This document shows positions 8,087 to 38,576 of a stretch of 41,063 nucleotides of DNA, one piece after another. The stretch is from positions 4,647 through 45,709 of the forward strand of contig JAAZXR010000032.1 of NCBI GenBank assembly GCA_014240065.1, read 5' to 3'. The stretch comes from Myxococcales bacterium (lineage in GTDB: Bacteria; Myxococcota_A; Polyangia; Nannocystales; Nannocystaceae). A program made the translations under genes and the position numbers. Position 1 is the first letter of the stretch; each line of letters begins with the position of its first letter. The notes below the pieces were generated by a model. The model was not told the DNA's origin and did not search any database. It worked only from the letters and a program-made list of their open reading frames with translations.

Positions 8087-9009
8087 CGAGGAGCGTGCAG
8101 GTCTTCACCGATCGCGTCGGGCAGCGTGGCCTCAGCACAGAGAGGATCCTCCGACGGCAGCTGCACGTTTGTCGGCTGCAAGCGCGCCGCGACGGCCGCG
8201 AGCCAGCTGTTGATGGGCCGCGGATCTTGACATTCGGGGACGGCGTCGAAGGCCGCGTCGAGGAGTTGTTCGAGGCGCTCGAGGGCGTTTGGGAGCCCTA
8301 GCGTGAGGACGGCATTCGGGCGACCGTGCGCGCGATCTTGGCCGGCAGGCTTCCCCATACCGCGGGCTTCGAGCGCGTCGTGCAGATCGTCGGCGACTTG
8401 GTACGCCTCTCCGATCAGCGCTCCAAAGTCGGCCCAGTGGTCTTCGAACTGCCCGGAGACGATGGCACCGCACCGCGCAGCGGCTTCAAACAGCGCGCCG
8501 GTCTTGGCCCGGTGATATCGGGTCAACACGACGTTTGGTTCGCACTCCCACGCCTGTCCGCCGATGATCCCTCGGTTTGCGCTGACCGCATCGGAGATCC
8601 GGCGCAAGAGCGCGGGGAGGTGTGCGGGCTTGACGCTTTTGTTGGTCAGCGTCTGAAACGCACCCACGATGAGCGCGTCGCCAGTGAGCACGGCGAGGGA
8701 CTCCCCGTAGGCCGCGTGGACCGAGGGTTGACCGCGGCGCTCGGCGGCATCATCGAAGCATGGGAGGTCGTCGTGGACGAGCGATGCGCAGTGCAAAAAC
8801 TCGATCGCATTGGCGGGGGCGCGCGCATCTTCGTCCGTCCCGCCACCGGCTTGGCTGACGGCGTGACACAGCAGCGGGCGCAAGCGGGCCCCGCCTCCGA
8901 GGCAGGCGTGTCGCATGGCTGCGGCGAGTCTCGGTGGGACGCTCCGCCCGTCTGAGACTCTCCTTAAGTCGTCTCTCAATCCCGATTCCAGAAGCAAGTG
9001 TGCCGCCAT
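8083..9009 (-). CDS. crtE: Geranylgeranyl diphosphate synthase (polyprenyl synthetase)
   Basis: A 308-residue trans-prenyltransferase that condenses isopentenyl diphosphate with allylic diphosphates, most likely making the C20 precursor for carotenoids. The first aspartate-rich motif is DDLPCFDD (about 80-87), the bacterial type with two extra residues. The second is QVADDLHD (about 205-211). The GGGARLRPLL and GDALIVGAFQ segments are also standard. I start at the ATG at 9009 (MAAHLLLESG); the frame continues upstream into the divergent crtD gene, but that part is not protein-like. The assignment as CrtE rather than another chain-length enzyme rests on its carotenoid neighbours. It is divergent from crtD with 66 bases between the chosen starts. 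Confidence 0.92.
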   Translation of the reverse strand: MAAHLLLESGLRDDLRRVSDGRSVPPRLAAAMRHACLGGGARLRPLLCHAVSQAGGGTDEDARAPANAIEFLHCASLVHDDLPCFDDAAERRGQPSVHAAYGESLAVLTGDALIVGAFQTLTNKSVKPAHLPALLRRISDAVSANRGIIGGQAWECEPNVVLTRYHRAKTGALFEAAARCGAIVSGQFEDHWADFGALIGEAYQVADDLHDALEARGMGKPAGQDRAHGRPNAVLTLGLPNALERLEQLLDAAFDAVPECQDPRPINSWLAAVAARLQPTNVQLPSEDPLCAEATLPDAIGEDLHAPR

Positions 9010-9075
9010 CGCCGCAAGTTTGGCGCACGTCCGCTTGTTGTCAATGTTCCTTGCGGCATGAGAGAGGGTGCTAAG
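9010..9075. promoter_or_regulatory. Divergent crtE/crtD control region
   Basis: This 66-base gap must serve both genes. On the minus strand TTGACA occurs at 9039-9044, with a weak CAAACT 16 bases on, which would place crtE transcription start almost at its ATG. On the plus strand an AGAGAGGG ribosome site (9060-9067) precedes the crtD GTG. The same TTGACAA word recurs in the crtI/carH gap, so it may be either a -35 box or part of an operator. Confidence 0.35.
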
Positions 9076-10668
9076 GTGCGCTCTGTGCGAACTGTGAACG
9101 AGAACGCGCATGTGACGCCTCATGTCGTGGTGGTGGGCGCGGGCATGGGCGGGCTGTCGGCGGCCGTGGATCTCGCGGCGAGCGGGGCGCGAGTCACGTT
9201 GATCGAGCGCGCAAAAACGGTCGGGGGGAAGGTTCGGAGCGTAGAGGTGGAGCGTCGAGGGATCGACGCGGGGCCCACCGTGATCACGATGAAAGATGTG
9301 TTCGAGGATCTGTTCGAGTGTGCTGGAGATCACCTTGAAGATCACCTAGAGCTCGCGCCGCTAGACATCCTCGCCCGTCACGCCTGGCCAGACGGCACCC
9401 AATTCGATCTCTTCGCGGACGCTGGGCGAGCCGAGGAGGAGGTCGCCCGAGTGTTCGGCGGAGATGCCGCGCGCGGCTACCTACGCTTCGTCACCTACGC
9501 TCGGGGGCTGTATCAAGAGGTCGAGCACCCCGTGATGCGCGCGTCCAAGCCGAGTCTGCTGCGGGCGGCGTGGACCATCGGGATGCGCGGACCGGCCTCC
9601 ATTCGACGCCTCGATTGGCGACGTACGATGTGGTCGGCGCTCGGCGAGTTTTTCCCAGATCCTCGACTGCGGCAGCTGTTCGGGCGCTACGCCACCTACT
9701 ATGGCTCGTCACCGTTCTCCGCGCCGGCGACCTTGAACCTCATCGCCCACGCCGAGAAGCTCGGAGTGTGGACAGCGAAGGGGGGCATGCGCGCGCTGTC
9801 AGGTGCTGTGGAAGACCTGGCCAAGCGCCTCCACGTAGAGATTCGGACGGCGACGCACGTGCGCGAGATTCGCTGCGAGGGAGGGCGCGCGACCGGCGTG
9901 ATCCTCGAGTCAGGCGAGTCGCTGGAGGCCGACGCGGTGGTGAGCAACGTCGATCCCGCGGCGCTGTCAGCGGGGCGCCTCGGGGTTGGGGCGACCCGCG
10001 CGGGGCGACCGATGCCACCGCGCGCGCGCTCGCTCTCTGCGATGACGTGGTGCAGCGTCGCGCGCCCTGCGGGCGTGGACCTCGAATATCACAACGTATT
10101 TTTCTCCGACGATTACGCGGCCGAGTTCGAGGCGTTGATGGGCGCGCGTGAGGTGCCCTTTGAGCCTACGGTGTACATTTGTGCGCAAGACAGGGCGCCG
10201 TCTCAGGAGCGTTCGACGGGACAGCGAGAGCGGCTGCTGTTGTTGATCAACGCGCCCGCCGACGGTGATCAAGCGCGCTTTAGCGACCACGTGGTGAACC
10301 AATGCAGAAACAACGCGACACGTCTCCTCACCCGCTGCGGCCTCGAACTTCACGACGAGGTGTCGGTCGTCACGACGCCCGCGCAGTTCCACGAGCTGTT
10401 TCCGGAGACCGGGGGGGCGCTCTACGGTGCGGCGACGCACCGCACGTTGGCGCCGTTCTCGCGACCCACAGCGAAGACCAAGATTCGCGGACTGTACCTG
10501 GTCGGGGGGGGAGTCCATCCGGGAGCGGGGGTGCCGATGGTCACGATGGGGGGCCGCATCGCGGCGAACGAAGTGCGCAAGGACCTCGCTTCGACCAACG
10601 GGTGGACCCCGGCGGCTACCTTTGGTGGTATCTCGACGTCGTCTCGGACGACGGGCGCGACGCGCTGA
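9076..10668 (+). CDS. crtD: Carotenoid 3,4-desaturase, CrtD-like (phytoene desaturase family)
   Basis: FAD-dependent carotenoid desaturase of about 530 residues. The dinucleotide-binding motif is VVVVGAGMGGLSAAVDLAA (about 17-35), followed by the GGKVRSVE and GIDAGPTVITM segments. The C-terminal flavin motif is LYLVGGGVHPGAGVPM. The pattern (YYGSSPFSAPATLNLIAHAE, ALYGAATHRTLAPFSRP) resembles 1-hydroxycarotenoid 3,4-desaturase rather than CrtI, and the next gene is crtC, its usual partner. I chose the GTG at 9076 because GAGAGGG lies 7 bases upstream; the ATG at 9058 has no ribosome site. The last 20 or so residues read through the crtC start in another frame and look like a non-conserved extension. 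Confidence 0.88.
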   Translation: MRSVRTVNENAHVTPHVVVVGAGMGGLSAAVDLAASGARVTLIERAKTVGGKVRSVEVERRGIDAGPTVITMKDVFEDLFECAGDHLEDHLELAPLDILARHAWPDGTQFDLFADAGRAEEEVARVFGGDAARGYLRFVTYARGLYQEVEHPVMRASKPSLLRAAWTIGMRGPASIRRLDWRRTMWSALGEFFPDPRLRQLFGRYATYYGSSPFSAPATLNLIAHAEKLGVWTAKGGMRALSGAVEDLAKRLHVEIRTATHVREIRCEGGRATGVILESGESLEADAVVSNVDPAALSAGRLGVGATRAGRPMPPRARSLSAMTWCSVARPAGVDLEYHNVFFSDDYAAEFEALMGAREVPFEPTVYICAQDRAPSQERSTGQRERLLLLINAPADGDQARFSDHVVNQCRNNATRLLTRCGLELHDEVSVVTTPAQFHELFPETGGALYGAATHRTLAPFSRPTAKTKIRGLYLVGGGVHPGAGVPMVTMGGRIAANEVRKDLASTNGWTPAATFGGISTSSRTTGATR

Positions 10669-27690: not shown

Positions 27691-28926
27691 CTAGGGCGCG
27701 CACGCGGATGGGTTGAAGCCGTAGAGGATCTCCTCCGAACGGTTGAGGGTGTAGACATTGCCGTCGTAGCCCACCGACACCCCCACGGCGTAGTCGTGGC
27801 CGGGCGTGCCGAACTGCATGGTATGTCCTCGGGTGCCCGCGGCGTCGAAGGTGGTGAGGAAGCCGTCGTCGTAGCCCCGCACCCACTGGCTGCCGTCGAT
27901 GGCCCCTTCGGTCCAACCCGAGATGTACACGCTCCCGCCGGCGTCGGCCTTGATGTACTGCGCGTGGTCGGTCACAGGGGTCCCGAACAGGCGGGTCCAA
28001 AGGACCGCGCCAGCGGAATCGTACTTGCGCACGAAGGCGTCACCGTGCCCGCGGTACTCCTGATCGTCGATGGAGGTGTGGGTGTAGCCCGTGATGAAGA
28101 CGTTCCCGTCGTCGTCGGTGGTGACGTCGTGCGCGGCGTCGTCTTCCGGCGTCTCGAGCTGGCGCACCCACCGGAGAGTTCCCGAGGTGCTGAACTTGGC
28201 GACGAAGGCGTCGTCGGACCATTTTGTGGCGCCAGGTTGGTCAAAGACGCCCTCGGTCCTCCCGGTCACGTAGACGTTCCCGTTCGCGTCGGTCGCGACC
28301 GCGTGGGGCTGCTCATCCTCAGTGGTGCCGAGGATACGCGTCCACTGTTGCGCTCCGTCGGGGTTGTATTTGGCGAGGAGGAGATCGCTCGATTGGGCCG
28401 ACCAGGTTCTGTGGACGACGTAGAGGTTGCCGCTCGGGTCGATGGCGAGGTCAATGACCGGTTTCGTATCAGAGCGGTACAAAATTCCCCGCTCGGTCCC
28501 GTCCGTTCCGTACCTTGCGATGAAGGCGTCTCTCTTTCCGGTCTCACCGGACTGGCGTTCACCAAAGACGAACAAATCTCCGTCGGGACCGGTCGCGATG
28601 GACGAGAGCCAGATACGATGGAGGTCGTCGGGGGTGATCTGTTGGGTCCATCGTACGGCACCTGCGGCGTCATAGGCGGCGATCACACCCATCGTCTCGT
28701 CGAGCAAGCTGTCGTTCCACACGACGTACACATGACCGTGGACGTCGGTGATCATGTCCTGAGGCGATGCGGTGTACAAATATTCGAGTGAACGGGTGAG
28801 GTCCTCGCAGACACCGTCATCGACGCACCCACTGCTGACCGCGGTCATGCTCAGCGCCGCGATGGCCGCCAACGCACCACCGCCGAGCAACCCACGACGA
28901 CGCGCTACCCAAACCGATGTGCTCAT
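27691..28926 (-). CDS. Beta-propeller (SBBP-type repeat) lipoprotein
   Basis: A 411-residue exported lipoprotein. The signal has an Arg-Arg-Arg-Gly-Leu-Leu start suggestive of the Tat route and a lipobox SSGC (Cys34). The mature part is a run of 50-residue repeats of the form GNVYVTGRTEG ... DAFVAKFSTSGTLRWVRQL, as in SBBP and related beta-propeller proteins, at least six of them, for example GNVFITGYTHTS and GSVYISGWTEG. No enzyme motif is visible; it is probably a binding or structural surface protein. The ATG at 28926 with GCGGA three bases upstream is preferred over the ATG at 28944. It converges on the metalloprotease gene. Confidence 0.88.
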   Translation of the reverse strand: MSTSVWVARRRGLLGGGALAAIAALSMTAVSSGCVDDGVCEDLTRSLEYLYTASPQDMITDVHGHVYVVWNDSLLDETMGVIAAYDAAGAVRWTQQITPDDLHRIWLSSIATGPDGDLFVFGERQSGETGKRDAFIARYGTDGTERGILYRSDTKPVIDLAIDPSGNLYVVHRTWSAQSSDLLLAKYNPDGAQQWTRILGTTEDEQPHAVATDANGNVYVTGRTEGVFDQPGATKWSDDAFVAKFSTSGTLRWVRQLETPEDDAAHDVTTDDDGNVFITGYTHTSIDDQEYRGHGDAFVRKYDSAGAVLWTRLFGTPVTDHAQYIKADAGGSVYISGWTEGAIDGSQWVRGYDDGFLTTFDAAGTRGHTMQFGTPGHDYAVGVSVGYDGNVYTLNRSEEILYGFNPSACAP

Positions 28927-29078
28927 TGGTCCGCTTCGATCCATGTGCGCAGCCTACCACCCCGCGATGGTGCAAAAGATCGAGCCTCCCGGACTACGGC
29001 GCGACTGTTCACCACCGCAGGCGTCGTCGTCGACGAGGCTGCGGGGCTCAGTTGACCCCGTCCGTAGGCTTGAGAAGC

Positions 29079-31451
29079 TCAATCGGGTGTGGAAGCAGGC
29101 GTGGGATTCGGGGCGGGCAGAACGTCCGCCGAGGCGGGCGTCTCAGGTGCGGGTGGAGCCGCGGGGGCGGGCGCAGCCTCGGGGGCGGGCGCAGTTTCGG
29201 GGGTGGGAGAGGGCTCGGGAGCGGCGGCGGGGGGATCGACCGGCGTGGGGTTGGCCGCCGGCGTGGGGCCGGGTGTCACGGTGGCCGCAGCCTTCGCGTT
29301 TTTACGACGCATGCGCCATTGCCTCCTGCCCTCGTATTTCTTCATGGGGAAGGCCACCCGCACACCGGTGGTGATGCCCAGGCCCGTATTCGACACGTCG
29401 GGGAGGTTGGGCACCTTGATGCGGCTGCTCCACTGTTGGCGCAGCTCCGCCATGAATCCGATGTAGTTGTTGATGCGGATGTCCACGCCCGCGTGGAGCT
29501 CAAAGCCCACGCCCGCGCCGAACTCCGCGGTGGTCGACATGGCCTCGCGCTGGTACTCGATATTCATCAAGTCGAGGCCGAACCCCAACCCGAAGGACGG
29601 GCGAATGAAGAAGTCTTCGAAGGCGTAGAATTCGCCGCCGAAGTAGAGCGGCACGCTGAAGTAATCGATCCCCGTGGCGTCTCCGGCGTCGAACCCTGGG
29701 GAGCCAGGTGATCGCACCAAGGTGGCGGTCCCGCGGGTGAAGCCGGTGCGAAAGTACGCGACGCCTTCGGGGAAGCTGCGGGGCTTGTCTTCGGTGTCGA
29801 AGATGGTCCAGCGCACGTCGACGCCGCGCAGCGCCTGACCAGCGCCGCTCTCGGAGAAGCCGGCGAACTGGTCCTTGGTGACCCGGGAGTCCCCTTGCTG
29901 GATCTCGCCGGCGGCGCCGTAGGGGGTGAACTGGGTGCCCACCGTCAGCTGCCCCCAGAGGATCTTGGGGATCTTCTCCTCTTTCTTCTTGTCGTCGTCG
30001 TCGTCGTCGTCGTCGCAGTCGCAGTCGGGTGGGGGAGGTGGACCTTCAGGATCGCCGCGCTCGCCGAGGCGGATGACCTCGACGGTGTCGCCGTCGGAGG
30101 AGGTCCAACGGCGGACCTCCCACTCGGGATCTTCCACCGCGAGCTGCGCTTCTGCGGCGGTGTAACCCGCGTAGTAGCTCGGGCCGTAGCCCACCCGGAA
30201 CAGGCCGGCGTGGAAGGCGTCGGCCAAGGCGCCGCGCTCTTGGGAGTCGCGGGTGGTGAAGGTGAGGTCGCTGGCGAGCACCGCGCCGTTGTCTTCGGCG
30301 GAGATTCGCGCCTCGACCCTGGCCCGGGTCCTTGGGTCTCGCCGGGCGAGGTACAAGGGTCCGCTCGGGACCCGCAGGTAGGCGGGGTGGGCGTCACTTC
30401 GCCGCAGGTCGGCGAGGCGGACGCCCCGCTCGTCTTCCACCAGATAGTGGCCGTTGTCCTCGCCCACGAACAAAACGACGCGGCGTTGGGGCAGGTCCCT
30501 GTGGACGAGGAGCGGCGCTCGCTGATCGGCGGCGGGGGGGTGTACGGACACGTCGAGGCGCGCGCGGGGGTCCTCCACGCCGCGGTTCGCCGCGGAGACA
30601 AAGGCGCCGATCTCGGAGTATTCGATGCGCCCGTCCCCGTTGATGTCGCCGCCGCCTCGCATGGCGCTCAGCAGCTGGTGGGTGAAGATCCCCCCGCGAT
30701 AGCGCTCCCACTCGTGGGTCGTTTGGTCGCTCGAGCTCGCGAGCAACACCCCGGTGTTGGGGTGGGCGTCGAGGCGCTCGGCGTCGAGGTACTCGCGCAC
30801 GGCCTCGGGGTTCTTGGGCGTGACGCGATCGGACTTCCAGCCCTCGCCACGAGACAACACCAGATCTTCGCTGCGGCAGGCGTCGACGAGCAGGTGGTTC
30901 ACGTTGGCCTTGGAGCCGCCGACGAGCTCGCCCAAGAGCTCATGACGGGTGAGGCGACCTTGTTCGAGGGTCAAGAATTCCCGGCCGTCATCGCCGAGAT
31001 CACCGTGGCCGGAGTAGTAGATCGTGAAGGTGGCGTCCTCATCGCTCGCCTCGATCTGCGCCATGAAGTCGGCGTGTGCCGTTCGGATCGCCTCCAAGTT
31101 CGGACGCTTCGCGCGCGTCACGAGCTCGGGGTACAGGGCCTGGCTCTCGGTGTCGAAGGTGGTGAGCAGCGCCACGGTGGTCCCGCTGTCCTCGAGGAGC
31201 TCTGTCATCCGCGCCGCGTCATCGTCGGCGAAGCGGAGGGTCGGGAGCGCATCGCGAGGGCTGAGGTTGGTGCCGATGACGATGGCGTAGGCGCTGGTCG
31301 CTTGGGTCGCGGGCGCCACAGCGGCGAAGGGGTCGGGCTCCTCCGCGCGTGCGACCGACGCGGCGAGCATCACGATCGCGGTGAACGCCGCGCCGATCAG
31401 GCGACGTTGGGAGGGGCGAGGGACGTGGATTTTGTCGGTACGTTTCATCAT
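29079..31451 (-). CDS. Exported caspase-family (C14) protein with C-terminal beta-barrel-like domain
   Basis: A 790-residue protein with a signal peptide (about 1-36, VMLAASVARA). A caspase/metacaspase domain covers about 50-330: strand AYAIVIGTN, catalytic His149 in YYSGHGD and Cys192 in LLVDACRSED, then GVLLASSSD. An EF-hand-like DINGDGRIEYSE loop follows (about 290-302), possibly binding calcium. An unassigned region leads to an acidic Asp8/Lys linker at about 480-490. The next 230 residues are beta-strand rich with alternating aromatics (YFSVPLYFGGEFYAFEDFFI, SFGLGFGLDL), like an OmpA- or opacity-type outer-membrane barrel. The tail is Pro/Ala-rich. I start at the ATG at 31451, whose ATGA overlaps the stop of the upstream gene, so it is coupled to the anti-sigma-like and sigma genes. 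Confidence 0.87.
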   Translation of the reverse strand: MMKRTDKIHVPRPSQRRLIGAAFTAIVMLAASVARAEEPDPFAAVAPATQATSAYAIVIGTNLSPRDALPTLRFADDDAARMTELLEDSGTTVALLTTFDTESQALYPELVTRAKRPNLEAIRTAHADFMAQIEASDEDATFTIYYSGHGDLGDDGREFLTLEQGRLTRHELLGELVGGSKANVNHLLVDACRSEDLVLSRGEGWKSDRVTPKNPEAVREYLDAERLDAHPNTGVLLASSSDQTTHEWERYRGGIFTHQLLSAMRGGGDINGDGRIEYSEIGAFVSAANRGVEDPRARLDVSVHPPAADQRAPLLVHRDLPQRRVVLFVGEDNGHYLVEDERGVRLADLRRSDAHPAYLRVPSGPLYLARRDPRTRARVEARISAEDNGAVLASDLTFTTRDSQERGALADAFHAGLFRVGYGPSYYAGYTAAEAQLAVEDPEWEVRRWTSSDGDTVEVIRLGERGDPEGPPPPPDCDCDDDDDDDDKKKEEKIPKILWGQLTVGTQFTPYGAAGEIQQGDSRVTKDQFAGFSESGAGQALRGVDVRWTIFDTEDKPRSFPEGVAYFRTGFTRGTATLVRSPGSPGFDAGDATGIDYFSVPLYFGGEFYAFEDFFIRPSFGLGFGLDLMNIEYQREAMSTTAEFGAGVGFELHAGVDIRINNYIGFMAELRQQWSSRIKVPNLPDVSNTGLGITTGVRVAFPMKKYEGRRQWRMRRKNAKAAATVTPGPTPAANPTPVDPPAAAPEPSPTPETAPAPEAAPAPAAPPAPETPASADVLPAPNPTPASTPD
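29991..30014. repeat. GTC trinucleotide tract (eight copies)
   Basis: Eight perfect GTC units in plus orientation code for eight consecutive Asp in the caspase-family protein linker. Slippage would change linker length without breaking the frame. Confidence 0.85.
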
Positions 31452-32317
31452 TGCGGCTTTCCAGAGGTCGTGTGCAGCTCGATGCCCAGCTCGACGGCCG
31501 AGCAGTCGCGCTGGGAGGTGCACGGTGGGTTGGAGTCTTCATCGAGGTACGTGGTCCAGGTGGGCCCCGAGGAGGTGGCGCTGGGCTCGCCGGCGAGGAC
31601 AGAGGCCCATCGTTGAATGTCGTCGTGATCCACCATGCGTCCTTGCTCGAGCAACACCCCGAACACGCGGAGCATTCCCGGGCGGTGATTGATCTCGAGG
31701 GCCACTGTGATCTGCGCGGGCGCCCACGCGCCGCTCTCGGGGCGAAGGGCGGCGGGGTCGTCGGGCGTCGGCGCGTAGTACAAGACCTGGCCGCGTCCAT
31801 CGAGGCCGAACAACACCAGCGGGCGGTCGGGATCTGTGGCTGCGGCGACGCGGTAGGCGAAGCTCATGGTGTCGGCCACCTCACAGCCGCGCTCGGCGGG
31901 TCGCAGCGGGTCGCCACACAGGGCGCGCAGAGCGAGCGGGCCGGAGGCGTCGTCTCCGCGCACGGTGAACTGCGAGGAGGTGTGGTCCGTGCGCACCCAA
32001 AACACCAAGGCGGCGAGACCCGCTGCGAGGGCGCCCCCGGACCACAGCGCGCGGCGCCCCCGGCGGAGCCATGTGGCCAGAGGATTGGCTCGGGGCTGGA
32101 GCTCGCCAAGCAGGCGGTCGTGCACGAGGTCGAGCTCGAATGGACACCAGCCGTCATCGCTGCCCTCGAGGATCCGCAGGCCGTGCACCGCGACGTCAAA
32201 GTGGGCCCGGGTGTCGGCGTCGGCAGACATCCGCTCGAAGAGGCGACGGCGTCGCCTCTGCGGGAGCTCCCCGAGCACGTAGCGCCGAATGGCCGCGAGC
32301 TTTCGGCGGTGGTTCAT
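31448..32317 (-). CDS. Single-pass membrane protein, anti-sigma-like layout
   Basis: A 289-residue protein encoded between the ECF-like sigma factor and the caspase-family gene, with ATGA overlaps on both sides. Residues 1-55 resemble the anti-sigma N-terminus (RRYVLGELPQRRRRRLFERM, then FDVAVHGLRILEG) but lack the His-x3-Cys-x2-Cys zinc motif. One membrane helix lies at about 90-108 (ALWSGGALAAGLAALVFWV). The C-terminal 180 residues would be periplasmic, with strands such as PLVLFGLDGRGQVLYYAP, like a small sensor or binding domain, and four cysteines that might pair. Position and topology suggest that it holds the sigma factor at the membrane, but this is inference; no sequence signature proves it. 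Confidence 0.8.
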   Translation of the reverse strand: MNHRRKLAAIRRYVLGELPQRRRRRLFERMSADADTRAHFDVAVHGLRILEGSDDGWCPFELDLVHDRLLGELQPRANPLATWLRRGRRALWSGGALAAGLAALVFWVRTDHTSSQFTVRGDDASGPLALRALCGDPLRPAERGCEVADTMSFAYRVAAATDPDRPLVLFGLDGRGQVLYYAPTPDDPAALRPESGAWAPAQITVALEINHRPGMLRVFGVLLEQGRMVDHDDIQRWASVLAGEPSATSSGPTWTTYLDEDSNPPCTSQRDCSAVELGIELHTTSGKPQ

Positions 32318-33072
32318 GCGACCCCCTTGATCAGCTGGGCGGTGGCCGCCGCGGCGAGCAGCAAGGTCGCGTCTTGGGGCAGCCATTGCGTCTCGCCCCG
32401 CGCTTGCAGGTAGCGGATGAGGGCGCGACGGATCTTTTTCTCCCGCGTACGAATCACTTGACGTCCGACGCCGAGCGCCGCGGCGACGTCCTGTTGGCCG
32501 GCGCCCTCCGAGTATCGGAGTCGGACGAGGGCTTGATCCTCGGGGCTCAGCTGCGCCAAAAATTCAGTCACCAGACGGCGCACGGAGGCGTCGTGCGCGG
32601 CGGCCTCCGGATTTTGGGGAGGCGCAGCGGCGGTGGGGGTGGCGAGGTGCGCGGGGGTCTCGGCGGTCTCGCTGACCGACTCGGGCCCCGCACCCACCGC
32701 CGGGAACAAGCGCTCTTTGGCGCGAAATCCGGCGATCACCACGTTGCGCGCGATGGTGGCGATGTAGGGGCCGTAGGGGCGCAAGCCGTCGTAGGAGATC
32801 CGCGCCTTGGGTTCGAAGGCCCGGCGAAAGGTGTCGTGGAGCGCGTCTTGAAAGTCGAAGGCGGAGGCGTAGCCCACGAACCGACGAGGTTGCCCGCCCG
32901 AACGGAACGAGAAGCCGTGTCGCAGCAGGCCGGCGATCCGGGGGGCATACTCGCGATACACGGCCGACAACACCTTCGTTTCCCCTTCGCGAAACGAGAG
33001 CAAAAACGGACGCGGCCAGGGCTCAAAATCCTGCGTGGTCGTCTGCGGGTCCTCGGCGGTCACAAGGTCCAC
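32314..33072 (-). CDS. RNA polymerase ECF-like sigma factor
   Basis: Predicted sigma70-family factor of about 252 residues. The region-2 helices include DALHDTFRRAFEP and GPYIATIARNVVIAGFRAKERL, and region 4 is FLAQLSPEDQALVRLRYSEG followed by QQDVAAALGVGRQVIRTRE, the DNA-binding helix-turn-helix. A 50-residue Pro/Ala-rich linker separates them. An extra hydrophobic C-terminus (LLLAAAATAQLI) is unusual. The frame is open to 33315, but the part before about 33081 overlaps the upstream region of a divergent gene and looks unconserved. GTG codons at 33081, 33072 and 33063 are all possible; I chose 33072. It is the first gene of the three-gene operon with the anti-sigma-like and caspase-family proteins. 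Confidence 0.85.
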   Translation of the reverse strand: MDLVTAEDPQTTTQDFEPWPRPFLLSFREGETKVLSAVYREYAPRIAGLLRHGFSFRSGGQPRRFVGYASAFDFQDALHDTFRRAFEPKARISYDGLRPYGPYIATIARNVVIAGFRAKERLFPAVGAGPESVSETAETPAHLATPTAAAPPQNPEAAAHDASVRRLVTEFLAQLSPEDQALVRLRYSEGAGQQDVAAALGVGRQVIRTREKKIRRALIRYLQARGETQWLPQDATLLLAAAATAQLIKGVA

Positions 33073-33304
33073 TATGCACACCGACCCGACGTTGGTTGGA
33101 TCCGATGAGCGTTTCTTCGAGATGACTGAAAATCGCGCACAGTCCGCAGCGCGCTCGAGCGCGCTCAGAATCTCGTTTGGCTGACTTCGATCGCAGTTCT
33201 TGAGGTGTGTGACCGGGGACTCGATCGCGACGTCGTGGCTGGGCGCGTCGAATCGTCGGCTCCACCGCGTTCGAATTGCCTCGCGCGCGCGAAGGGGGAG
33301 TTTG

Positions 33305-35104
33305 ATGGATGGCAACGAAGGATTTCGACGGAGTGTGGGCGGCTTGTTGGCGACGCTTGTGGGTGTTGGGGGTTGCCTGCTGGGTGCGGGAGAAGCCGCG
33401 GCCTACGACTGTGGTTCCCTCGCGGCCGCGCGACGGGGTGGCGCCGCCGGCTGCGACGCCGCGGACGTCGCCGCGATCGATGACGCGTACACCAACCCGC
33501 GGGTGCGAGGGAGGGGAAACGGCGACCTCATCGGTTTTTTCACTGGGGCGTGTGAAGATGGAGGCGATCTTTGTGCGGAGCCCCTGCGGTGCATGGACGG
33601 CACGCGACCGATCTATTACGTCGACCCCGCGCGGGATCCCATCAACAGCCCTTCGGACCCGATCTCGAACGGCTGGATTTTCTACGTGCAAGGTGGCGGG
33701 AGCTGTGGAGACGGAGTGTCTTGCGGCAACAAATATACGTCCTCAGAGCGAAGCGAGATGAGCAGCGCCCAGGCGAAGCGGTTTCGAAGTGAGCGGGGAA
33801 TCTTCGCAGATCCCCCGGGCACGACGAATCTGTTCACCAACTACAATCGCGTGTGGATCCACAAGTGCAGCTACGATCGATTCACGGGGAGCAACACCAA
33901 CGCTGGGGAACCATCGCCCTACAACGTCGGCGACACCGTGGACCTGTTCTCCCATGGTCGTCGCATTTGGAGCGCGGTCTTTGATGCGCTGACCACGAAT
34001 CACCCCAGCCTCGGGCTGGGATACTCGGTGTCGTCTCCGTGTCAGACGAGCACCTGTGATGGGACTTGCCCGGCTTCCGGTTGTGACGGGCACCTGCCGA
34101 CCCTCGCGAACGCCACGCATGTCATGCTCATTGGTTGGTCGGGTGGAGGTCACGGCATGATTCAGCAGCTCGACAGCCTCGCGGCGGAGCTCTCAACGAT
34201 CGCGGTCAACGCGGATATTCGCGGCGTCATCGACGCTCGCTTTATGCCTTCGGTCGAAGTTCAAGGCGCATTCTGGGAGGATTCTTTTGACGAGATCTCC
34301 GGGGCCGCTGTTCCCGATGGGATCAATGACTACCTCCAATGCGGGGTCGCGGGGACCGCCTCACCGGTGTGCACTGACAACGGTGACGGGATCATCGATG
34401 AGACAGAGGCGCTCAGCTCGGGCTCCACCGTCTACAACGCGGACTGGTTCACGCCGGGAGAGCTTCCGCAAAACCCAGGGTGTCCAGCGTGTGACGTGAC
34501 CTATGGGACGGACGAGTTTGCCGCGGGGAACCGTTTGGCTGATGGGTATGATTTTATGGGCACCCAGCCCGACGCCTCATGCCTCGCCGCACACCCGAAC
34601 GCTCCGAGCATCTGCTACGACTACACGCACGTGCTCTTGAATCATGTGGCGACACCATTCATGCTGCGATTCGGGATGCGTGATCAGGCGTTCTGGGGCC
34701 CAGACAGCCACGCGCTGGGGGCAGACGACCCCGACTACTTTTACACCGTGTCGGCGTATGTCGACCGGTCTCGCGTCCAGCTGAAGAACTATATCGAGGG
34801 TTTCTTCGACAACCCGCTCGCGACGCATCACTCGGAGCTCGCCACGGGCGCGGACCCTTCATGGCTCAACGAGGGGCTCCCCACGGACGCGCCATGGCCG
34901 ATGGCCGTGTTCGCGCCAGACAGCCAGGTTCACGCGGGGGTGGCAGGACGTGACGACACCTTCTTCGACGGGTGCATGGCGCCGTCCGGCGGCGGCCCTG
35001 TGCTCAGCGCCCACGACGCGCTCTTCGATTGGATCACCTACGACGTCGACATCCGCGCCTATGACGATGGCGCCAACTGGACCACAGCCGCCACCTGTCC
35101 GTGA
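33305..35104 (+). CDS. Secreted pectinacetylesterase/Notum-like hydrolase
   Basis: A 599-residue protein with a signal peptide (about 1-34, ending near GEAAAYDC). It has the hallmarks of the pectinacetylesterase/Notum alpha/beta hydrolase family: GWIFYVQGGGSC (about 120-131) near the oxyanion region, and the nucleophile elbow LIGWSGGGHGM (about 275-285, Gly-x-Ser-Gly-Gly form). Many paired cysteines in Asp/Asn-rich loops (CTDNGDGIIDETE) fit a secreted protein, and the latter loop resembles a calcium-binding dockerin-type motif. It is a likely carbohydrate or lipid esterase. GGGGAG lies 6 bases before the ATG at 33305, a strong ribosome site. It is divergent from the sigma-factor gene and converges on the SNF2 gene with a 6-base gap. 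Confidence 0.82.
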   Translation: MDGNEGFRRSVGGLLATLVGVGGCLLGAGEAAAYDCGSLAAARRGGAAGCDAADVAAIDDAYTNPRVRGRGNGDLIGFFTGACEDGGDLCAEPLRCMDGTRPIYYVDPARDPINSPSDPISNGWIFYVQGGGSCGDGVSCGNKYTSSERSEMSSAQAKRFRSERGIFADPPGTTNLFTNYNRVWIHKCSYDRFTGSNTNAGEPSPYNVGDTVDLFSHGRRIWSAVFDALTTNHPSLGLGYSVSSPCQTSTCDGTCPASGCDGHLPTLANATHVMLIGWSGGGHGMIQQLDSLAAELSTIAVNADIRGVIDARFMPSVEVQGAFWEDSFDEISGAAVPDGINDYLQCGVAGTASPVCTDNGDGIIDETEALSSGSTVYNADWFTPGELPQNPGCPACDVTYGTDEFAAGNRLADGYDFMGTQPDASCLAAHPNAPSICYDYTHVLLNHVATPFMLRFGMRDQAFWGPDSHALGADDPDYFYTVSAYVDRSRVQLKNYIEGFFDNPLATHHSELATGADPSWLNEGLPTDAPWPMAVFAPDSQVHAGVAGRDDTFFDGCMAPSGGGPVLSAHDALFDWITYDVDIRAYDDGANWTTAATCP

Positions 35105-35110
35105 CCGACG

Positions 35111-38100
35111 CTACAGCTCTTGCCAGGGATCGGTGGCGGGGGTGTCGAGCAGGCGCTCCACGTCTTCCATGGTGAGCTTCTTGCCCGTGGTGGTGTCGCG
35201 GCCCAGGGCCGACTCGGCGACGCGGCGCTTCTCTTGACCGAGCTCCACCATCTTTTGTTCCACCGTGTCTTCCATGACCAGGCGGTACACGAACACCGGC
35301 TTCTCTTGGCCGATTCGGTGCACCCGATCCGTGGCCTGATCTTCCACGGCCGGGTTCCACCACGGGTCGTAGTGGATGACCGTGTCCGCCTCCGTCAAGG
35401 TGAGACCGCTGCCGCCGGCCTTGAGGCTGATCAAGAACACCGGCGGTCCCTCGCTCTTTTGAAACCGCTCCACGAGCTCGGCGCGGTTTTTGGTGCCGCC
35501 GTGAAGCCACAAGAACTCGATGTCCATCTCTTCGAGCTTGGCCGCGATGATCTTCTGCATGGAGACGAACTGGCTGAACACCAGCACCTTGCGCCCGGCG
35601 CCGATGAGGTCGCCGATGAGCGCCTCGAAGGCCTCGAGCTTCGCGGAGGGGGGCACGACCTGGCTCTCGGGGAGCCCGAGGAGGTTCGGGTCGGTGCACA
35701 CCTGGCGCAGGCGCGTGAGCGCGGCGAGGATTTTGATCTGTGATTTCTCCACCCCGTGATCGGTGATCCGCCCTTGGATCTCCGTCTTCGCGGCCTTGAG
35801 GATCTTGTTGTACAGCGCGAGCTGCGGGCGGTTGAATTGTACGTAGAGCGTCTGCTCGGTCTTCGCGGGCAGCTCGCTGGCCACGTCCTCTTTACGGCGC
35901 CGCATGATGAACGGGCGCACCCGCGTGCGGAGGGTGTCGAGCGCCTCCACGTCGCCGTCCTCGATGGGCTTGACGTAGTTCTTTTGAAACTCCGTCAGCT
36001 TGCCCAAAAACCCGGGCGCCAAGAAATCAAAGATCGCCCAGAGATCGATGATGTGATTCTCCACGGGGGTCCCGGTGAGCGCGAGCCGGTGGTCGGTCTT
36101 GAGCTTGCGGGCGCTCTTGGCGGTGCCGGTGTTCCAGTTCTTGATGTACTGGGCCTCGTCGAGCAGGCCGTAGCGGAAGCGGATCTTGGACAGGTCGTCG
36201 ATGTCCCGGCGCAAGATGGTGTAGCTGGTGACCACCACGTCGACCTGCTTGAGCAAGCGGGCGTGCTCGCCTCGGTCGGGGCCGTGCCACACGAGCACGG
36301 TGATGGACGGCGCCCATTTCTTGATCTCCTGGTACCACACCGACAGCACCGAGGTCGGGCACACGATGAGGCTCGGCATCGGACCCTCCGCCTCCTTGGC
36401 CTTGGCGAGCAAGGCGATGGCTTGCACGGTCTTCCCGAGCCCCATGTCGTCCGCGAGGATGCCTGTCATCTGGTTCTCGTGGAGCTGCCACAGCCACGCG
36501 AAGCCCGACTTTTGGTAGTCGCGCAGCTTCGCGTTGAGCGCCTTGGCCTTGCGGGGCGCCTTGCTCGCGCGCTCGCCCACCATATTGTCCATGAGCTTTT
36601 TGACATCCTTGGCCACCGCGGCGTCGGGGACGGCGGAGAGCAGCTGGGACAGGGCGCCGAGCTCGAGGGTGTTGAGCTCCGCGTGACCGTCTTTGTCAAA
36701 TTGGATCGCGCCGGCGGCGTCGGCGATGGGCTTGAGGATCTTGGGATCGAGCTTCACCACGCTGCCGTCGGACAAGGTGATCCAGCGGCGCCCGTCGTGC
36801 ATCCATCGCAGCAGGTCATGGAACGACAGCAGGTCCTCGTCGCCCTCCACAGAGACGATGGCCTCCACGTCGAGCACCGAACCGCCGGGGTTCTTCACGG
36901 AGACCCGCGAGGTCGGAGACTTGGAGCGCACCTTGGGCAGGCTCGGGATGCGTTTGCTCCACGCCTCGGGGAGCAACGGGATGCCGGCCACCATGAATTC
37001 GATGGCGTCGTCGCCGCGCGCCGAGAACGCCCCCTCGGCGCTGTTCCAGCGCAGCTTGAGCTCCGTGAGGACCTTGCGGGCGGCGGCCTCGGTGTCGAGG
37101 TCTCGATAAAACGCGATGGTCTCCTTGCCGTGCGTAAAGGTGTAGCGCGCGGACTCTGGGTCGTCGCCGGCGATGGGCAAGGAGACGTTGCCGTAGCGGG
37201 CCGAGAGCTCCACGTTGAGGCGCTCGCCTTCGCCAGAGATCGTCGCGAGGATCTCCTCGACCTCGCGGGCGTCCGAGGCGAGGGCGAACAGGTCGTGTCG
37301 TGGGACCCCGACGGCCTCAAGCTGCGCGGTGAGCTTGTCCATATCGTCGGCGTCGACGCGGGTGTCCATGAGGATCCGTGGCTTCTTCGCCACCGCGGAC
37401 AACACCCACGGCGGGGTGTCGTGGACCATGAAGGCCTCGCCGCTTTCGGGCCAAAGAAACCAGGTGGGCGCGCCGGGAATGACGATGCCGCTGTCGACCT
37501 CGAAGCTGCGGTGGGCCTCGGTGTCCTCCAAAAACGCGTGGAGCTCGACCGCGTGGCCGTCGGCCTCGGCCTCCACGCGCAGCACCAGCGGGTTGTTGGA
37601 GAAGCGCAGGCGGCCGGCGCCCTTCAAGGAGATGGAGGCCTCTCGGGCGGCGTAGAGCAGGCCCGCGAGGGCCGAGGGCTCGAGCACCACCGCGCCCGTG
37701 TCCTCATCCTCGTCGATCGCCTGATCGAGGTAGCTTTGGATGAGCGCCTCCACGGGGGAGAGGGTGGCGCCGCGTCGGCGCTTGCCGCCGGTGGCCGCGC
37801 TGCCGGTGTCGAAGCTCTTGATGTACCAGCGGCCGCGGCGCTGATCGACCTGATAGCGGCGCCCTCGGGCCGCGCCAGACATGCTCTCTGTGACCCAGGG
37901 ATTGTTGGTGGTGGAGAACTCTTCTCCGTCCTCGGCTTGTTGGCGCACAGTCAAGGCGAGCGCGACCGCGTGCTGGCAAAACTTCTCCCAGCCGTCCATA
38001 AACGTCGGGCACGAGCAGTGCGCGTGGAGTTTCTTCCCGCGAGAGGCGAGCTCGATGCGGGTCTGGTGATCGGACTCGGAGTCGCCTTTGACCTTGCCCT

Positions 38101-38272
38101 TGATCTCCGAATCGCCGAGCACGAGGTCGTGGACGCGCTTGTTTTTCTTGAACAGCGCTTGGCCGGCGAGGAACGCCTTGGGGGTGGCGGTGCGCGTGAG
38201 GGCGTCCGTTTGCAGGAGTGGTAGAAATGGATCGAGTTGACTCAAGGGGACCTCAGTAGGGTGAGGGCGCAT
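35111..38272 (-). CDS. SWIM zinc-finger SNF2-family helicase
   Basis: DNA translocase/remodeller of about 1053 residues. The SWIM domain is near the N-terminus: CSC, then FCQH at about 86-101 (Cys86, Cys88, Cys99, His101). A large unassigned middle region follows (about 110-580). The SNF2 motor starts near 590 with GILADDMGLGKTVQAI (Walker A), DEAQYIKN (motif II) and LTGTPVENHIIDLW (motif III). The C-lobe has LKAGGSGLTLTEADTVIHYD and WWNPAVEDQATDRVHRIGQ (motifs V and VI). Bacterial SWIM-SNF2 proteins may remodel RNA polymerase or nucleoid proteins (as RapA does) but their role is not settled. I start at the ATG at 38272; a longer frame to 38500 is Pro/Arg-rich and not conserved in type. Confidence 0.93.
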   Translation of the reverse strand: MRPHPTEVPLSQLDPFLPLLQTDALTRTATPKAFLAGQALFKKNKRVHDLVLGDSEIKGKVKGDSESDHQTRIELASRGKKLHAHCSCPTFMDGWEKFCQHAVALALTVRQQAEDGEEFSTTNNPWVTESMSGAARGRRYQVDQRRGRWYIKSFDTGSAATGGKRRRGATLSPVEALIQSYLDQAIDEDEDTGAVVLEPSALAGLLYAAREASISLKGAGRLRFSNNPLVLRVEAEADGHAVELHAFLEDTEAHRSFEVDSGIVIPGAPTWFLWPESGEAFMVHDTPPWVLSAVAKKPRILMDTRVDADDMDKLTAQLEAVGVPRHDLFALASDAREVEEILATISGEGERLNVELSARYGNVSLPIAGDDPESARYTFTHGKETIAFYRDLDTEAAARKVLTELKLRWNSAEGAFSARGDDAIEFMVAGIPLLPEAWSKRIPSLPKVRSKSPTSRVSVKNPGGSVLDVEAIVSVEGDEDLLSFHDLLRWMHDGRRWITLSDGSVVKLDPKILKPIADAAGAIQFDKDGHAELNTLELGALSQLLSAVPDAAVAKDVKKLMDNMVGERASKAPRKAKALNAKLRDYQKSGFAWLWQLHENQMTGILADDMGLGKTVQAIALLAKAKEAEGPMPSLIVCPTSVLSVWYQEIKKWAPSITVLVWHGPDRGEHARLLKQVDVVVTSYTILRRDIDDLSKIRFRYGLLDEAQYIKNWNTGTAKSARKLKTDHRLALTGTPVENHIIDLWAIFDFLAPGFLGKLTEFQKNYVKPIEDGDVEALDTLRTRVRPFIMRRRKEDVASELPAKTEQTLYVQFNRPQLALYNKILKAAKTEIQGRITDHGVEKSQIKILAALTRLRQVCTDPNLLGLPESQVVPPSAKLEAFEALIGDLIGAGRKVLVFSQFVSMQKIIAAKLEEMDIEFLWLHGGTKNRAELVERFQKSEGPPVFLISLKAGGSGLTLTEADTVIHYDPWWNPAVEDQATDRVHRIGQEKPVFVYRLVMEDTVEQKMVELGQEKRRVAESALGRDTTTGKKLTMEDVERLLDTPATDPWQEL

Positions 38273-38576
38273 ACGCGGTGGCGGGTTCGCCGTTGACAGT
38301 GGAGTGGAGTCCGCGTCCGGCGGAGTCCTACTCGTCACGCTAACGAGCGAGGTCGAGTGCAACGCAACCAGAAGCGCTCGTCTCTCGCGGCCCCTGCATA
38401 GCACGGCGGCCGCGGCGGGGTCCAGCCCACGCGCAAGCGCGCTTGGTGACCGATATGGGGCAGATCTCACGATTTTGGGGACGGGTGACCCTGTGTTCAC
38501 GGGTCACAGGGGCGGGGAGTCGGAGCCGTGGTGTGTGGGGTTGTGGCAGGGGTCGCCGTGCGGGCACCATGACGCC
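38273..38576. other. Divergent intergenic region with overlapping hairpins
   Basis: This 304-base gap separates the SNF2 and methyltransferase genes. It contains two alternative short stems that share bases: GTGACCC/GGGTCAC (38485-38491 with 38501-38507) and CCCTGTG/CACAGGG (38489-38495 with 38505-38511). They lie about 66 bases upstream of the methyltransferase ATG. A lone TTGACA sits near 38294. I see no gene here. Confidence 0.45.

Follow-up and report, generated by a model that had tools for sequence, protein, structure and literature searches.

In a 41,063-nucleotide stretch of a Myxococcales bacterium genome (contig JAAZXR010000032.1; the whole stretch is hereafter called the window), three minus-strand open reading frames (ORFs) at 33072-29079 encode, in this order, an extracytoplasmic function (ECF) sigma factor, a predicted membrane-anchored anti-sigma factor and a predicted exported caspase carrying a beta-barrel. 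The assembly is of metagenome type, 4.7 Mb in size and 98% complete; all feature coordinates below lie on the minus strand unless marked otherwise. In the collections compared, its nearest relatives include Plesiocystis, Enhygromyxa, Nannocystis and Paraliomyxa, matches that point to a myxobacterium of Nannocystaceae type. Consecutive genes are joined by ATGA overlaps, at 32317-32314 (sigma/anti-sigma) and 31451-31448 (anti-sigma/caspase). A preliminary description of this DNA had reported the same three genes and two overlaps, and the coordinates and domain matches obtained here agree with it.

The first gene (32314..33072; 252 amino acids when read from 33072) encodes an ECF (group 4) sigma factor with regions 2 and 4 only. 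Its product passes the curated cut-offs of TIGR02937 sigma70-ECF (50.8 bits versus 42.9) and Sigma70_r4 (33.2 bits versus 24.1), matches Pfam region 2 weakly (13.9 bits versus 24) and aligns with 16 orthologues. A promoter-like element, CAACCAA-N15-CATAG (33072..33098), fits the motif CAACCCA-N15-[CG][AG]TAG, which in an alignment of upstream regions is kept before the sigma genes at nearly all of the 16 orthologous loci. The best promoter pair was exact in 8 of 16 upstream sequences, versus 4-6 in shuffles, and by eye nearly all 16 carry it with one change. Because the -10 element of this conserved promoter runs into the GTG at 33072, the sigma factor probably begins instead at GTG 33063, near the transcript start, as judged from promoter position; the gene and ORF of the preliminary description stand, but its start at 33072 probably does not.

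The second gene (31448..32317) encodes a 289-residue membrane protein whose orthologues are 22-40% identical. The protein itself has no Pfam match; its relatives match zf-HC2 (E=7e-4) and DUF4384. In its structure model (predicted local distance difference test score, pLDDT, 83), a bundle of helices lies N-terminal to the membrane helix and a beta-sandwich C-terminal to it. The predicted cytoplasmic anti-sigma domain (residues 1-75; 32093..32317) contains helices at 3-14, 20-32, 34-51 and 59-73; its zinc ligands, HxxxCxxC, persist in 50 of 93 relatives from triads and are lost in the window protein. A transmembrane helix at about residues 93-110 (31988..32041), called from the sequence and from hydropathy on relatives, has an Arg-rich N-terminal side, and the positive-inside rule predicts an N-in/C-out orientation. 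The beta-sandwich that follows (residues 121-283; 31469..31957), DUF4384-like by the matches of relatives, should thus be periplasmic, a location that its conserved cysteine pairs, C134/C145 and C271/C277, fit. Around the membrane helix, as far as residue 118, the model shows little order; the first strand starts at residue 128. A fold search with the model returned no significant match (E at best 0.05). By its domain layout, a helical N terminus plus a transmembrane helix, beside an ECF gene, we assign the protein with high confidence to the class I-type anti-sigma factors (anti-sigma domain/zinc-binding anti-sigma, ASD/ZAS). The earlier suggestion of a periplasm-facing membrane protein as the partner of the sigma factor is supported by this modelled layout and by the zf-HC2 matches of relatives.

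The third gene (29079..31451; 790 amino acids) begins with a predicted signal peptide (about residues 1-36, cut at ...SVARA/EE; 31344..31451), and hydrophobic N termini occur in almost all triad caspases versus few other caspases. The caspase domain (residues 52-300; 30552..31298) passes Peptidase_C14 (55 bits versus a cut-off of 21.4), and its model matches MALT1 and metacaspase-9. Catalytic His149 (31007-31005) and Cys192 (30878-30876) are invariant in 16 orthologues, and the His-Cys dyad is present in every triad caspase whose domain is complete enough to read; apparently dead caspases in some triads proved to be an artefact of a regular expression, the alignment revealing an intact dyad in GHA/GHS and DSC variants. 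Acidic Asp78 and Asp190 are conserved and align with conserved positions of Arg/Lys-specific metacaspases that serve as S1 residues. The modelled caspase fold with its dyad places the protein in C14B, and its acidic S1 pocket suits a predicted Arg/Lys preference. Near the end of the domain, a loop of canonical EF-hand type, DINGDGRIEYSE (residues 269-280; 30612..30647), matches solved calcium-binding proteins.

Towards the C terminus lies a predicted eight-stranded outer-membrane beta-barrel (residues 497-703; 29343..29963). It is sub-threshold by sequence (OMP_b-brl E=0.009) and clear in the structure model, which matches OmpA, OmpX, Ail and NspA; stand-alone paralogues occur in relatives. 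With an OmpA-like barrel, the caspase domain would face the periplasm. The fusion of a C14 protease to a barrel, as first described, holds in both its parts. We found no other Peptidase_C14 match in the window genome. Assignment to the EACC1-associated caspase systems was rejected (NCBIfam NF047832, 43.4 bits versus a cut-off of 140), as was a role in anti-phage defence, for which PADLOC matches were weak.

The order of these genes recurs across Myxococcota more than chance would give. Searching 59 relatives located the anti-sigma in 22 genomes, mostly with sigma and caspase genes adjoining in the same order. A family survey read the surroundings of 83 caspases: after de-duplication, 40 (from 20 other genomes) stood with sigma and anti-sigma genes, 4 further ones lay at contig ends and 37 were of other kinds; in some of the family triads the caspase is divergent from the sigma/anti-sigma pair. 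Among named genomes, 67 of 80 caspase loci were complete triads and the remainder, 13 loci, all start no more than ~1.2 kb from the end of their contig; the scan retains just the top matches to its query and so gives no measure of how often distant caspases stand alone. These triads include Myxococcus xanthus, Corallococcus, Archangium, Hyalangium and Pyxidicoccus. An anti-sigma search of 151 genomes across the phylum yielded 97 anti-sigmas with an adjacent caspase. The overlaps recur as well: in 85 collinear triads, the motif [AG]TGA was found at 70 sigma stops and 69 anti-sigma stops. In a tree made by a quick method and containing several long branches, triad caspases and the solitary or cytoplasmic caspases of the same genomes fell on opposite sides of one branch (Shimodaira-Hasegawa-like approximate likelihood ratio test, SH-aLRT, 81).

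With very high confidence, then, the triad is a real, conserved system across Myxococcota. The preliminary description had looked to conserved neighbourhoods to decide this, and the triplet is indeed present in diverse genomes of the phylum; members of the same caspase clade were never solitary where the contig was long enough for a judgement, and the sigma factor was not seen with any other anti-sigma. One record titled Comamonas sp. KCTC 72670 (BNCN01000017.1; L187) holds a Myxococcus-like triad, probably through a mistaken title or contamination of the record. Separately, at least seven cytoplasmic-type caspase genes are clustered on one contig of a relative (G007:C220, 1-34000; L083 and L131).

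Alignment of the anti-sigmas pointed to a candidate cleavage site, Arg120-Gly121 (31955..31960), in the juxtamembrane linker. Its context is SSQFTVR/GDD, with the cut predicted after Arg, and in the model it comes after the membrane helix and its poorly ordered surroundings but ahead of the first strand. Across the first 94 anti-sigmas, the column of Arg120 holds Arg (52) or Lys (42) and no other residue, mostly followed by Gly. In a second set, the 97 anti-sigmas with an adjacent caspase, the column holds Lys in 69 and Arg in 25, and in the three exceptions the R/K pair is shifted by one or two positions. Combined, 188 of 191 (98.4%) have Arg or Lys here, then Gly, Ser or Ala, against a local R/K background of 10.5%, a figure that is descriptive and not a p-value, as all sequences are related and a few rows are duplicated between the sets (L244 is the window itself). 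By residue class, this is the top conserved position of the anti-sigma. Non-anti-sigma DUF4384 proteins that we inspected generally lack an R/K-Gly pair there.

The flanks of the site vary with the caspase. Opposite HEW-type caspases, the anti-sigma has mostly Phe or Trp at P4 and mostly Arg at P1; opposite QES-type caspases, it has mostly Arg at P3 and mostly Lys at P1. This correlation between flank and clade may reflect a matched protease and substrate. Metacaspases and paracaspases cleave after Arg or Lys. In MALT1, Asp365, Asp462 and Glu500 of the S1 pocket bind P1 Arg (PMC4357240), and the substrate consensus is LxP/SR with G after the cut (PMC4659944); the window site, FTVR/G, resembles this consensus.

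Anti-sigmas that lack a nearby caspase served as controls. There were seven, one of them cut by a contig end, leaving six usable; four of the six (L227, L236, L325 and L353) lack the site. A further candidate control, L039, was rejected, its sigma gene having collapsed by internal deletion. That locus (G054:C427, ~8786-9880) looks like a decayed copy, with the anti-sigma intact and the caspase missing. At L353 (G158:C14), the sigma and anti-sigma genes are followed by an exported lipoprotein that, by inspection, resembles TPR-CHAT; it is possible that this locus is a variant with another clan CD protease.

A strict form of the promoter motif was scanned in 29 genomes of the family. It precedes triad sigma genes and, in four genomes, stand-alone barrels that share 34-43% identity with the barrel of the caspase (L373, L378, L388 and L395); in three genomes it precedes a family of exported proteins of ~460 residues without a Pfam match (L367, L377 and L391). 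In G005, a stand-alone barrel gene lies directly upstream of the sigma gene on one contig. The presence of this promoter before both the operon and exported proteins and barrels suggests that the triad is autoregulated, with a small envelope regulon. A wide regulon in the window genome was rejected: apart from the operon, the motif matches a single place, beneath which there is no clear gene start, and a stand-alone barrel was not found in this genome. A scan for sigma-70-type promoters found none.

These observations lead us to a model in which site-1 cleavage of the anti-sigma probably falls to the caspase, the three genes together making up a single switch from envelope to transcription. 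In this model, the class I-type anti-sigma, whose periplasmic part is DUF4384-like, would hold the ECF sigma factor at the inner membrane, while the exported caspase would be anchored to the outer membrane through its C-terminal barrel and face the periplasm. An envelope signal, possibly calcium acting through the EF-hand loop or possibly a barrel ligand, would activate the caspase, which would cut the juxtamembrane linker of the anti-sigma behind Arg120. The remaining stump would be removed by regulated intramembrane proteolysis, through a site-2 protease and then cytoplasmic proteases; site-2 protease homologues (Peptidase_M50) are present in the window genome. Once released, the sigma factor would transcribe the operon that encodes it, together with a small number of envelope genes. 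The preliminary description had suggested that the caspase affects release of the sigma factor; the conserved triad supports that idea, and the near-universal R/K-Gly linker site makes anti-sigma cleavage its leading form. We lean, on balance, towards the broader statement that an outer-membrane-tethered, paracaspase-like protease is a dedicated site-1 protease acting at R/K-Gly, in an autoregulated system that is Myxococcota-wide and has several paralogous versions per genome.

Several observations weigh against this model. One anti-sigma, L205, has Lys followed by Pro at the site, which is poor for cleavage. Two of the controls, L311 and L328, retain the site without a neighbouring caspase, so that it may be partly structural or their caspases may act in trans; with only six members, the control set suggests the expected association, pointing the right way without settling the matter. 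The correlation between flank and caspase clade may stem from co-inheritance instead of co-adaptation. Finally, ~10 residues separate the site from the inner membrane while the caspase sits in the outer one, so the linker must bridge the periplasm.

Other roles for the caspase would account for parts of the same evidence. It might be the output of the system: the anti-sigma would sense through its DUF4384-like domain, and freed sigma would raise the level of an exported caspase directed at other envelope or external targets. We regard this as unlikely, although the caspase does lie inside a probably autoregulated operon and the predicted regulon of relatives includes other exported proteins, among them stand-alone barrels like its own. 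Left unexplained are the rank of R/K-Gly as the most conserved position of the anti-sigma by residue class, its variation with caspase clade, and the finding that the caspase is never apart from the pair where contigs permit judgement; trigger and output roles are, moreover, compatible and not exclusive.

The site itself could be read differently. If R/K-Gly were structural, marking the start of the sandwich, the caspase might act on the anti-sigma without cutting there or serve as a sensor scaffold. The two caspase-free anti-sigmas that retain the site, and the closeness of the Gly to the start of the folded domain, fit such a role, yet Arg and Lys swap freely, four caspase-free anti-sigmas lack the site and the residue lies ahead of the ordered portion of the model. 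Nor would a pure scaffold need a His-Cys dyad, which all readable triads retain; we consider this explanation improbable. Less probable still, and in our view very much so, is that the periplasmic domain of the anti-sigma restrains the caspase, as an inhibitor or a bait, for as long as sigma is not needed, with the site as a pseudo-substrate. An inhibitor would likewise give a conserved substrate-like segment beside a dedicated protease, but Gly at P1' fits the cleaved bond of MALT1 substrates and the juxtamembrane position fits site-1 cleavage.

The preliminary description had called the coupling of sigma factor, membrane protein and caspase unfamiliar, which holds for only part of it. According to an earlier report, four of five metacaspases of M. 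xanthus lie in operons with sigma-70 factors, and such operons recur in Anaeromyxobacter, Haliangium, Sorangium, Ralstonia and Fibrobacter (Asplund-Samuelsson et al. 2012, PMC3501461). There, as in the window, the gene of a caspase homologue and that of a sigma-70 factor are predicted to form an operon, and the phylum is the same; the two are almost certainly the same system, and the association itself, published in 2012, is therefore not new. The section of that report consulted here describes no anti-sigma, export, barrel or cleavage site, and no mechanism beyond possible cell death. Our literature search, partial in coverage and without the 2021 ECF reclassification, found no account of an anti-sigma partner, barrel-linked export or a cleavage site. 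What is new here is the proposed mechanism with a concrete candidate site.

Known signalling systems share parts of this design. The proteolysis of RseA by DegS and of RsiW-type factors likewise involves an ECF sigma, a single-pass anti-sigma and a presumed cut in the juxtamembrane periplasmic linker; unlike there, the role of site-1 protease is proposed here for a caspase whose gene shares the operon and whose tether lies in the outer membrane. Fec-type cell-surface signalling also combines an outer-membrane barrel protein, an inner-membrane anti-sigma and an ECF sigma, whereas the window barrel is small, has eight strands and carries a protease; membership was rejected, with no Pfam match to a TonB-dependent receptor or FecR in the three proteins or the anti-sigma relatives. 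MALT1 and metacaspases (C14B) share the caspase fold, the His-Cys dyad, acidic S1 residues and, for MALT1, a similar site; unlike these, the window protein is a putative protease of bacterial origin, predicted to be exported, with an outer-membrane barrel and an EF-hand-like loop.

Links between ECF sigma factors and caspase-like proteases have also been described elsewhere: ECF54 is found, according to a review, with CHAT-domain proteases (PMC8999054), and EACC2-caspase systems are accompanied by ECF sigma genes (PMC8195603). A precedent is the CRISPR CASP system (Csx29 TPR-CHAT, Csx30 and CASP-sigma), in which Csx30 inhibits an ECF sigma factor and is cut by the caspase-like Csx29 (PMC10028731); a clan CD protease cutting an ECF-sigma inhibitor is what we propose here. 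CRISPR CASP differs in being cytoplasmic, RNA-activated and CRISPR-linked, with a CHAT rather than a C14 protease and with an inhibitor, Csx30, that is not of this anti-sigma type. Membership of the window triad was rejected, given its C14 protease, its zf-HC2/DUF4384-like inhibitor and the lack of flanking Cas7-11-type genes.

The functions and natural substrates of bacterial caspase homologues are largely open, with cell death as the usual guess. For a large group of them, our analysis predicts both a specific substrate and the bond to be cut, and proposes a part in signalling for which cell death is not required. If true, an inhibitor cut at a similar Arg-Gly motif to free a transcription response would parallel MALT1 in animal immune cells. 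The prediction can be tested in Myxococcus, which has the same three genes. In the window, the conserved module is bordered by genes outside it, encoding an SBBP beta-propeller protein (27691-28944, minus strand), a pectinacetylesterase-family protein (33200-35104, plus strand) and an SNF2-type helicase (35111-38335, minus strand).

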